DNA from: an uncultured Clostridia bacterium
Lineage (GTDB): Bacteria > Bacillota > Clostridia > Oscillospirales > Ruminococcaceae
NCBI GenBank assembly: GCA_947624555.1
Contig: CANQKW010000003.1
Location: 62,001 to 126,000, forward strand
Length of the DNA: 64,000 bases
Direction: 5' to 3'
Below the pieces are notes generated by a model. It saw nothing but the letters and a program-made list of their open reading frames with translations, was not told the origin of the DNA and made no database searches. Of this stretch, positions 2,640 to 11,683 are shown piece by piece; position 1 is the stretch's first letter; every line of letters begins with the position of its first letter. Position numbers and translations under genes: made by a program.

Positions 2640-5348
2640 ATGTTTTGCGAAAATTGCGGTAAACAACTCATCAGGGGATACTCGTTCTGTCATGAATGCG
2701 GTTCGCCTGTGCCTCCCGAAGTGCTTGAAGAGGGCGGTCTGCCCGCAAGAGGCGGAAATAATTCCGAAGAAGGACAAACTCTGTCGGAACAAGCCGCAGA
2801 CGAAACGTCAGATATTACCGAAACTGCGGCTGAAGTGCAGGCGTCTATGCCCGGAATTGAGCCTCTCAACAAAAACGAGAGCGAAGAAACGCTCGTTTAT
2901 TGCCCGAACTGTGGGGTAAGAATTCAGAAAAACAAGGATTTCTGCGAAAAATGCGGAATGAGGGTCGGGGATAAGCCGACAAATTCCGTGCCGCTTATCA
3001 ATACTCACCCGATTAATCTTGACGGAAGTCCGAACGAATTCGGGGGCAGTGTGGACGATTTGTCCGCAAACGATTTATTCGGCACGGAGTCATATTCTCA
3101 GAGCGATATTGAGGCTCTTAATCAGCAGATGACGAATTTCGGTGCCTCTGCAAGCCTGATGCCCGAAATCAGCGGTATTGCGCCGACTGTCACTCACCAA
3201 AAAGAGCCTGAACCCGGCGCAGAACGCAAGGTCGAGAATTTTTCGATCTCGGAAGGCGATGATTTTCTTCCTGTTTCGGACAATTCCGTCCCGATAATTG
3301 AGGGCTGCTCGATGGACGAAAATCCCGACGAGGACGTTTCTCTTGACCCGTACCCGTTCCTTGGCAATTCAATGGACGATAATATTACGATTGAGGAAGT
3401 AGTTCCTGCTGTCGAGGAAGTTGTTCCTGCTGTGGAGGAAGTTGCTCCTGCTGTGGAAGAAATTGCTCCTGCTGTAGAGGAAATTGCCCCTGCTGTGGAA
3501 GAAATTGCTCCTGCTGTGGAAGAAGTCGCTCCTGTTGCAGAAGAAATTGCCCCTGCTGTGGAAGAAATTGCTCCTGCTGTGGAAGAAGTTGCTCCTGCTG
3601 TCGAGGAAGTTGTTCCTGCTGTGGAGGAAATTGCTCCTGCTGTGGAGGAAGTTGTTCCTGCTGTTGAGAAAGTCGCTCCTGCTGTGGAAGAAATTGCTCC
3701 TGCTGTGGAAGAAATTGCTCCTGCTGTAGAGGAAATTGCCCCTGCTGTGGAGGAAGTTGTTCCTGCTGTGGAGGAAATTGCTCCTGCTGTGGAGGAAATT
3801 GACGACTTTATTCCCGAAGAAATGGGATTTATTGCAGAAAGCTCCCCGATTATCGAAGAAACTGCTGAATTTACGGAAACCGCCTCCGCTGTGAAAACAG
3901 AGCAAAAGCCTGTTGAGGACCTTGATTTCAGACGTCCCGACAAGCCGAAAGCGTCAGCGGAAAATCCCGAAGAAGAGGTTCACGACGGAAATCTCGTATA
4001 CTGCCGCAACTGCGGTCAGGATATGTATGACACTGAGCCCTTCTGCAAAAACTGCGGCGCTCCGTACAAAGGGGCTTACATACCGCCGAAATCCGCTCCC
4101 TCAAAGAGCGCAAACAAGGAATCCCCAAAGGTATTCGGAAAAATCCCGCTCCCGAAGTTTATAGGCATTATTGCGGCAATTTTAGGAGTTACAGCAGCAG
4201 TTCTGTTTTTGGTGCAGCCGTGGCGTATAAAGAGCAACGGCGGCGACCTTACGGGAGATAAGACTCAAACAAGCTCTTCTTCGTCAAGCACTCCTGCTGA
4301 AAGCAGCTCATCCGGAAACCAAAGCAGCTCTTCGTCCGTTTCGTCAAGTACGCAAAGCAACGTTTCCTCTGCCGAGAGCAGTACGTCTTCAGCCGAAAGC
4401 GGCAATTCTTCGGCTGCGTCATCTTCTTCAAAGGCAAGCTCTTCTTCGTCTAAAAAGTCCTCTTCGTCCTCGTCAACCGTCCCCGTGGTGACAGGCACTA
4501 TGAGCGAAAAGGTAAAATCTCTCGAAAGTGACCGTGAAAAAATGATGGACGCTGCGGCACAGCTTGCAGGCGAGGTCGGTAAGATAGAGGCGTTCACTCA
4601 GCACATAATTTACGCTATGGATACTTCTTCACTAAGTGCAGAAAGCTCAAGAAAGGCTTTTTATACCACGAGCTTTGCAAAAAATATGCTGAGCAATCTC
4701 AGTTCGGGAAAATCCACCGTTGACAAGGCGGTTTCGGCGGCGTCACCCAAAAACAGCGAATACAGCTCGCTTTACAGCTCTCTTAAATCGCTCAGGACAA
4801 AATATGAGTCCTATTACAACTTCATAAAATCGCCTTCGGGTGATTATTCGTCCTTTACAAGCACCTGTTCGTCTTATGCGTCGAGCTTTAACAGCGCGCT
4901 TTCAAATCTGAGCCTCAGCAAGTTTATGACAAGCAATTACACCGCAGGCAACAGAAACAGCGCTTATGCGTCTGTGGTAAGCGCAGCAGTCACGGCGATC
5001 AAAAACTCCACGTCAAAGCTCACCACGCTCCAGAGCAAACTGACAGGACTTGGTTCGTCGTTTGACTCTAAGGTTTACAGCACGCTTTCGGACAATATGT
5101 CGACATTTGCAAGCGCAGCAGGTTACACATACAGAGTAAAAGCTTATTCGATAATGCTCAGCGGAGTTTCAAGCGGCTACAGCAGCGCTCTCACGTACAT
5201 AACCTACGCCGACAACACCTTGCAGAGCTTAATTGAAACTTATTCCTACATAAAGGAAAACAGCCTTTCAAACTACAAATCCGGCAGCACCACGCAAATT
5301 TCCAACGCCAACGCCTACGCAAACAACGCTGCGGCAGTTGTAAGATAA
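2640..5348 (+). CDS. multi-zinc-ribbon membrane protein with tandem (EE[VI][AV]PAV) heptad repeats, TM helix and Ser-rich linker
   Basis: Three zinc ribbons (CENCGKQ..CHECG; CPNCGVR..CEKCG; CRNCGQD..CKNCG), 19 heptads, TM segment FIGIIAAILGVTAAVLFLV, poly-Ser linker, large C-terminal domain. Confidence 0.8.
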   Translation: MFCENCGKQLIRGYSFCHECGSPVPPEVLEEGGLPARGGNNSEEGQTLSEQAADETSDITETAAEVQASMPGIEPLNKNESEETLVYCPNCGVRIQKNKDFCEKCGMRVGDKPTNSVPLINTHPINLDGSPNEFGGSVDDLSANDLFGTESYSQSDIEALNQQMTNFGASASLMPEISGIAPTVTHQKEPEPGAERKVENFSISEGDDFLPVSDNSVPIIEGCSMDENPDEDVSLDPYPFLGNSMDDNITIEEVVPAVEEVVPAVEEVAPAVEEIAPAVEEIAPAVEEIAPAVEEVAPVAEEIAPAVEEIAPAVEEVAPAVEEVVPAVEEIAPAVEEVVPAVEKVAPAVEEIAPAVEEIAPAVEEIAPAVEEVVPAVEEIAPAVEEIDDFIPEEMGFIAESSPIIEETAEFTETASAVKTEQKPVEDLDFRRPDKPKASAENPEEEVHDGNLVYCRNCGQDMYDTEPFCKNCGAPYKGAYIPPKSAPSKSANKESPKVFGKIPLPKFIGIIAAILGVTAAVLFLVQPWRIKSNGGDLTGDKTQTSSSSSSTPAESSSSGNQSSSSSVSSSTQSNVSSAESSTSSAESGNSSAASSSSKASSSSSKKSSSSSSTVPVVTGTMSEKVKSLESDREKMMDAAAQLAGEVGKIEAFTQHIIYAMDTSSLSAESSRKAFYTTSFAKNMLSNLSSGKSTVDKAVSAASPKNSEYSSLYSSLKSLRTKYESYYNFIKSPSGDYSSFTSTCSSYASSFNSALSNLSLSKFMTSNYTAGNRNSAYASVVSAAVTAIKNSTSKLTTLQSKLTGLGSSFDSKVYSTLSDNMSTFASAAGYTYRVKAYSIMLSGVSSGYSSALTYITYADNTLQSLIETYSYIKENSLSNYKSGSTTQISNANAYANNAAAVVR
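3393..3791 (+). repeat. 19 tandem in-frame 21-nt repeats encoding EE(V/I)(A/V)PAV
   Basis: Direct count of consecutive 21-nt units of the GAGGAAGTTGCTCCTGCTGTG type. Confidence 0.95.
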
Positions 5349-11293: not shown

Positions 11294-11322
11294 TTGACAT
11301 ATTTCTCAAATAGTGGTATAAT
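11294..11322 (+). promoter_or_regulatory. consensus sigma-A promoter inside an inverted-repeat element
   Basis: TTGACA (11294-11299), 17-nt spacer, TATAAT (11317-11322). Confidence 0.75.
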
Positions 11323-11440
11323 AAACACAGAGCGTTTATTATACATTATGTCCACGCACATACGCAAATCAAAGATTTGCTCCGTGCGGTAATGGACAAT
11401 TATACCATAAATCCTCCGAATTTATGGTATAATAAACACA
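11314..11440. repeat. compound palindromic element with a 16-bp direct repeat (TGGTATAATAAACACA) and three inverted-repeat pairs
   Basis: Direct repeats 11314-11329 and 11425-11440; inverted pairs 11316-11326/11334-11344, 11349-11380 side/11374-11398 side (TGTCCA..CGCAC..GCAAATC aaa GATTTGC..GTGCG..TGGACA), and 11399-11412/11420-11433 (14-bp perfect arms). Confidence 0.85.
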
Positions 11441-11506
11441 AGAATTTGGTTTCCCTCTTCGGGAAAAGCAGACAACTGCTGATTATGGTATCGAAAGGAG
11501 ATTTTT

Positions 11507-11683
11507 ATGAAAGCTATCAAGGAAACGAAAGTAAAATTAGGACCTGCTGCAACTGTCGTCGTGCCGATAATCGCCGCTGTGATAGTCGTAGCGTCCGCCG
11601 TGGCATATATCTGCCTGAAGATTGCAGACGAAATTCGCTACAACGAAAAGTGGAAGGACTATGACGAGTGCGGCTGGCATTGA
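11507..11683 (+). CDS. 58-aa single-pass membrane micropeptide (absent from the ORF track)
   Basis: ATG with GAAAGGAG RBS; MKAIKETKVKLGPAATVVVPIIAAVIVVASAVAYICLKIADEIRYNEKWKDYDECGWH; overlaps downstream ATG (11661). Confidence 0.7.
   Translation: MKAIKETKVKLGPAATVVVPIIAAVIVVASAVAYICLKIADEIRYNEKWKDYDECGWH

Follow-up and report, generated by a model that had tools for sequence, protein, structure and literature searches.

The palindromic segment at 11294-11440 of the window, by which we mean the whole 64,000-nucleotide stretch analysed, carries a non-autonomous element whose exact point of insertion is the -10 box, TGNTATAAT, of promoters of the sigma-70 type, where N is a variable base that differs among sites. 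Elements of this family are about 95-130 bp long, carry no gene, and prefer targets whose variable base is the same as that of their own right end. We observed that DNA was inserted, at an exactly defined position, that TGNTATAAT stands at either end, that three hairpins covary, that members of tandem arrays share a box, and that near-identical copies occupy different sites. We put the probability that this is a mobile, gene-less element directed to -10 boxes by sequence matching at roughly 85%.

The window copy and its surroundings

The original prediction described a 16-bp direct repeat, TGGTATAATAAACACA, at 11314-11329 and 11425-11440, inverted arm pairs at 11316-11326/11334-11344 (11 bp) and 11399-11412/11420-11433 (14 bp), a further hairpin around GCAAATCaaaGATTTGC, and a TTGACA-N17-TATAAT promoter. 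All of these are present (Table 1), with the central hairpin spanning 11349-11398 and the promoter, at 11294-11322, matching the consensus at 12/12 positions; this promoter is real and serves as the target of the element. Across the family the terminal repeat is only the 9-bp TGGTATAAT, and the adjoining AAACACA is peculiar to the window copy, its right-hand occurrence at 11434-11440 being possibly the remnant of a tandem copy. A 16-bp target duplication was rejected as a family rule because most copies have only the 9-bp box in common.

Table 1. Coordinates of the element copy in the window, its target promoter and the gene downstream.
Feature	Position	Strand	Evidence or remark
-35 box TTGACA of the host promoter	11294..11299	+	Kept at the orthologous empty locus in G031, G018 and G015
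Target of the element: host extended -10 box TGGTATAAT, which also forms arm 1 of the left hairpin and lies outside the moved unit	11314..11322	+	Single in empty orthologous sites
Left hairpin, arms 11316-11326/11334-11344	11316..11344	+	Compensatory changes in pairs 3' of the -10 box
Inserted unit, 111 bp	11323..11433	+	Missing at the same locus in G031, G018 and G015; repeated within the genome
AAACACA extending the direct repeat to 16 bp	11323..11329	+	AAACGCA in other copies; right-hand partner at 11434-11440
Central hairpin, asymmetric internal loops ATAC / TCC flanking the upper stem	11349..11398	+	Double changes at most pairs among 44 copies
Right hairpin ATTATACCATAAAT/ATTTATGGTATAAT, 3' arm ending in the second TGGTATAAT	11399..11433	+	Compensatory changes at the variable base
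Element's right end, a second TGGTATAAT that matches the target box	11425..11433	+	Target/terminus match statistics
58-aa ORF, gene of the invaded promoter	11507..11683	+	Conserved among relatives, whether or not they carry the element

The window copy is flanked by rsmI on one side and by the conserved 58-aa ORF on the other, beyond which comes a gene for a YgjP-like metallopeptidase (ygjP). The 58-aa product has a hydrophobic stretch and a weak match to DUF4231 (E 0.026). The leader 3' of the right box (11434-11484) is about 75% identical over 60 bases to the leader of another promoter, L011 (G000:C16:9568-9633; E 1.6e-4), and the two are possibly a second, weaker leader repeat in this genome; a second repeat family beginning TATAATAAACACA was considered and dropped, with a single weak partner as its only other member. 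Elsewhere in the window, 2640-5348 holds a 902-aa zinc-ribbon-type ORF with a long PAVEEIAPAVEEV-type repeat run and a serine-rich stretch.

Insertion into host promoters

Three relatives (G031, G018, and G015) have the same genes and the same promoter at the window locus without the element, the empty promoter consisting of TTGACATATTTCTCAAAT, or a sequence very close to it, followed by either TGGTATAAT or TGATATAAT. Compared with these empty sites, the window copy has 111 extra bp that begin directly after TGGTATAAT and finish with a second TGGTATAAT; the 9-bp box being common to both ends, the unit can equally be defined as 11314-11424. Empty sites in relatives were found for seven further insertions (L048, L068, L024, L026, L027, L067, and L071), and among them are sites at which an unusual target base was already present in the empty allele (TGATATAAT for L068 and GGGATATAAT for L048). 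In head-to-tail arrays, tandem copies have a -10 box in common, and at L105 the second copy retains the arm 2 of its parent and has the box of its neighbour as arm 1, indicating that arm 1 is outside the moved unit.

The same core at both junctions that is present once in the empty site, the preference for core identity, and the tandem arrays would all suit site-specific recombination, in which an excised circle with one TGNTATAAT core integrates at an identical promoter core through a recombinase of the tyrosine or serine type provided in trans, which might act on folded single-strand sites like those of integron cassettes. However, a double-stranded circle of 111 bp would be very small and arm-type binding sites are not evident, and we regard such a route as unlikely.

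Dispersal within the genome, genus, and family

Similarity searches of the element's own genome (2.2 Mb, 89 contigs) recovered 7-8 near-complete copies at 88-97% identity together with fragments, a covariance-model search gave eight strong matches, and two contigs, C59 at its end and C62 at its start, break within a copy. Copies are present in 24 of the 37 genomes of the genus, and 24 genomes of the order that belong to other families had no match to this sequence. In a sample of the family, the three-hairpin element was detected in 36/199 genomes representing 26/125 genera, and in GTDB genomes we found more than 100 loci with it, including in Ruminococcus flavefaciens, of which strain Y1 has tandem copies, the records being mainly rumen and hindgut Oscillospiraceae/Ruminococcaceae. 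This dispersal, together with the empty orthologous sites, bears out the early suggestion of a MITE-like or REP-like element; a locally duplicated operator, proposed alongside it, is at odds with dispersed copies at unrelated genes. The covariance model built here makes it possible to gather many copies from public genomes.

Searches for carriage by plasmids and phages returned no match. A pattern scan of viral contigs matched the right-end pattern in two contigs (L264 and L265). Related three-hairpin elements at L327 (G160) and L332 (G245) have different outer boxes and right ends in GTTTACTAT, and they are perhaps a sister family with another target. Perfect palindromes ATTATACCATA..TATGGTATAAT in unrelated bacteria (L161, L167, L191, L224, L237, and L258) were rejected as copies, as they look like overlapping divergent promoters.

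The promoter -10 box as target

The insertion site is TGNTATAAT, and a -35 box usually stands 17 bp above it. Across 55 independent sites in the genus, 35 have a -35 hexamer (TTGACA) matching at least 4/6 positions at 16-18 bp, compared with 15% in shuffled flanks, and the mean -35 score peaks sharply at 17 bp. The ssrA (tmRNA) promoter is occupied by copies in four genomes (G001, G004, G005, and G012), and G005 also has a copy directly upstream of a tRNA gene. Within the element's own genome, one copy (L005, probably completed by L008) has a stop codon on one side and a terminator on the other, which shows that the sites are not solely promoters.

The tmRNA promoter loci L027, L072, L083, and L096 show this promoter invaded in four species, and the left -10 box is TACAAT in three of them, as though its role had passed to the right-hand box. 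In G009, the tmRNA promoter locus holds only a truncated remnant (L131).

Every copy compared lies in the same orientation relative to its promoter. This bears on the idea, raised in the original prediction, of a phase-variable promoter: inverted repeats do flank part of the segment, but the two outer boxes are direct repeats and none of the assembled copies compared is inverted relative to its promoter, and we give an invertible promoter practically no credence. Following insertion, the old -35/-10 promoter would remain on the left and a second extended -10 box would be added on the right, so that the gene may keep its promoter and its transcript may gain a structured 5' leader. If elements of this kind seek out -10 boxes and do not merely end up there at random, they would systematically rewire promoters throughout a major family of the gut and rumen; the tmRNA promoter was struck in several species.

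Matching between element and target

The variable base of the target is associated with that of the element's right end (arm 3/4), with Fisher p-values of 5.6e-4 for the genus and, for a wider set that was collected with a G-type pattern, 1.6e-6. In the set collected with the covariance model, the two bases agree at 26/28 sites (p = 6e-6), and a further 15 readable sites, counted by eye, gave 11 matches. In one genome, G127, there are T-type copies at five different TGTTATAAT sites, four of them identical and the fifth differing by one base, and each of three A-type copies lies at a TGATATAAT site; given the background at promoter-like boxes, where N is about 30% A, 29% G, 26% T, and 15% C, the joint chance of these matches is about 3e-5. 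Among non-G targets of the genus set, about half are mismatched. The match is strong with arms 3/4 and weak with arm 2, the guide position, and one arm also comes to match another at a later stage, which obscures the signal in older copies. The preference for targets that share the right-end base suggests a natural targeting rule encoded in DNA.

Conservation of the fold

As RNA, the segment folds far beyond chance, with an energy of -44.5 kcal/mol compared with a shuffled mean of -18.7 (z = -8.5), and folded as DNA it gives z = -8.15. Three adjacent hairpins are retained across 44 diverse copies, with compensatory double changes at 22 of the 39 base pairs. In the left stem, the host -10 box and the first element bases pair with an internal complement, which in the window copy sets the host box against an element-internal ATTATAC. 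Because the -10 box is upstream of the start site and is not transcribed from that promoter, this pairing must act at the DNA level. An orthologous pair at the tmRNA promoter (L096 and L083) has TACAAT as the left box in both members and the matching change of the internal arm in one only, so the left-stem pairing has apparently been restored after insertion.

The constant promoter orientation, strong fold, and compensatory changes are also what a non-mobile cis-regulatory leader, riboswitch- or attenuator-like, would show had it evolved at these promoters. Such an origin is very improbable: orthologous sites are empty, near-identical copies lie at unrelated genes, the left stem includes the untranscribed -10 box, and Rfam has no covariance model that matches above its gathering score. 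A role as leader RNA, one of the options first proposed for the segment, may still apply to the part of the element downstream of the start site.

Movement and the search for a mobilising gene

Neither a mobilising gene nor a larger autonomous version with the element's ends was found among the isolated ends that we fetched: isolated left and right ends with several kb of flanking sequence, candidates for an autonomous parent, turned out to belong to normal short copies, to copies cut off at contig ends, or to divergent promoters that matched by chance. A search for a longer version in the genome with near-identical copies likewise found none. The hairpins, and the IS608 logic of a target on the left, would suit a Y1 transposase, but we found none in the element's own genome or in G004, G006, G009, and G127, all of which carry recent copies, and Y1 genes are about equally common in genomes with the element (12/36) and without it (61/163), most of the genomes compared being MAGs, where multicopy transposase genes can be lost. 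Among the Y1 loci fetched, none carries the element's ends. With no co-occurrence, and with the gene lacking from genomes that have recent copies, a Y1/IS200-type transposase was rejected as the mobiliser.

That no enzyme was found agrees with host-driven spread without a transposase, in which a nascent strand at one TGNTATAAT box would switch to the element's left box, copy about 110 bases to the right box, and switch back, with the hairpins promoting the switch. The 9-bp boxes match exactly at both ends and the variable base tends to be matched; tandem arrays and the truncated remnant L131 are typical of slippage between direct repeats; and L004 has TGCTATAAT at both ends with its inner arm unadjusted. 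Such template switching nevertheless leaves unexplained the near-identical copy set of G127 and the detailed shape of the central hairpin, internal loops included, that has been kept across many genera, and we consider it somewhat unlikely.

We suggest instead that the element moves as a folded single strand through an enzyme supplied in trans, and that the terminal box and the internal complements (ATTATAC..) would pair with, or exchange for, the target -10 box, comparable to guide/target pairing in IS608. Taken alone, the folded-strand enzyme step is tentative, at somewhat less than an even chance. Our literature search, whose coverage was partial, found no description of an element that targets -10 boxes, and there is a real chance that the mode of movement is new. 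That the family represents a new class of mobile DNA, with the host -10 box as both target and terminal repeat, chosen by sequence identity and spread by an undescribed folded-strand enzyme or without a dedicated transposase, is a possibility that we place just short of even odds.

Comparison with known systems

The element belongs with the short, gene-less, palindromic mobile elements, a known kind. Like classical MITEs of DDE transposons, it is short, without genes, dispersed, and palindromic, but those have terminal inverted repeats and a target duplication of fixed length, whereas here there is no terminal inverted repeat pair and the outer boxes run in the same direction, as copies of the -10 box that match the target. 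REP sequences mobilised by TnpA-REP (REPtrons) are similarly short, palindromic, intergenic, and dispersed, and bulged or looped hairpins are shared (REP recognition, PMC8266576); in place of a single hairpin with a conserved tetranucleotide and a TnpA-REP gene, however, this element has three hairpins, TGNTATAAT ends, and a promoter location, and its own genome has no Y1-type protein. In IS1272, DNA palindromes govern insertion (PMC5678879), a likeness to the element described here, but IS1272 has terminal inverted repeats and replaces its target palindrome, whereas here the target box is kept and repeated.

Parallels also exist with the IS200/IS605 family, in particular IS608, and with its non-autonomous derivatives (PATEs), which share end hairpins and the lack of classical terminal inverted repeats; in our element, too, the hairpins are subterminal. 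As in IS608, insertion is 3' of a fixed short target, here TGNTATAAT, that is kept at the left junction and restored in precise empty sites. IS608 selects its target by base pairing with sequence of its own (PMC5934647), and the targets of the present element may be chosen in a comparable way. The differences are that no Y1 (HUH) transposase is linked to or co-occurs with our element and that its right terminus repeats the target. Whereas IS608 targets a tetranucleotide under a rule that concerns the left guide, the present element targets a 9-base promoter box, and arm 3/4 agrees with its target better than arm 2 does.
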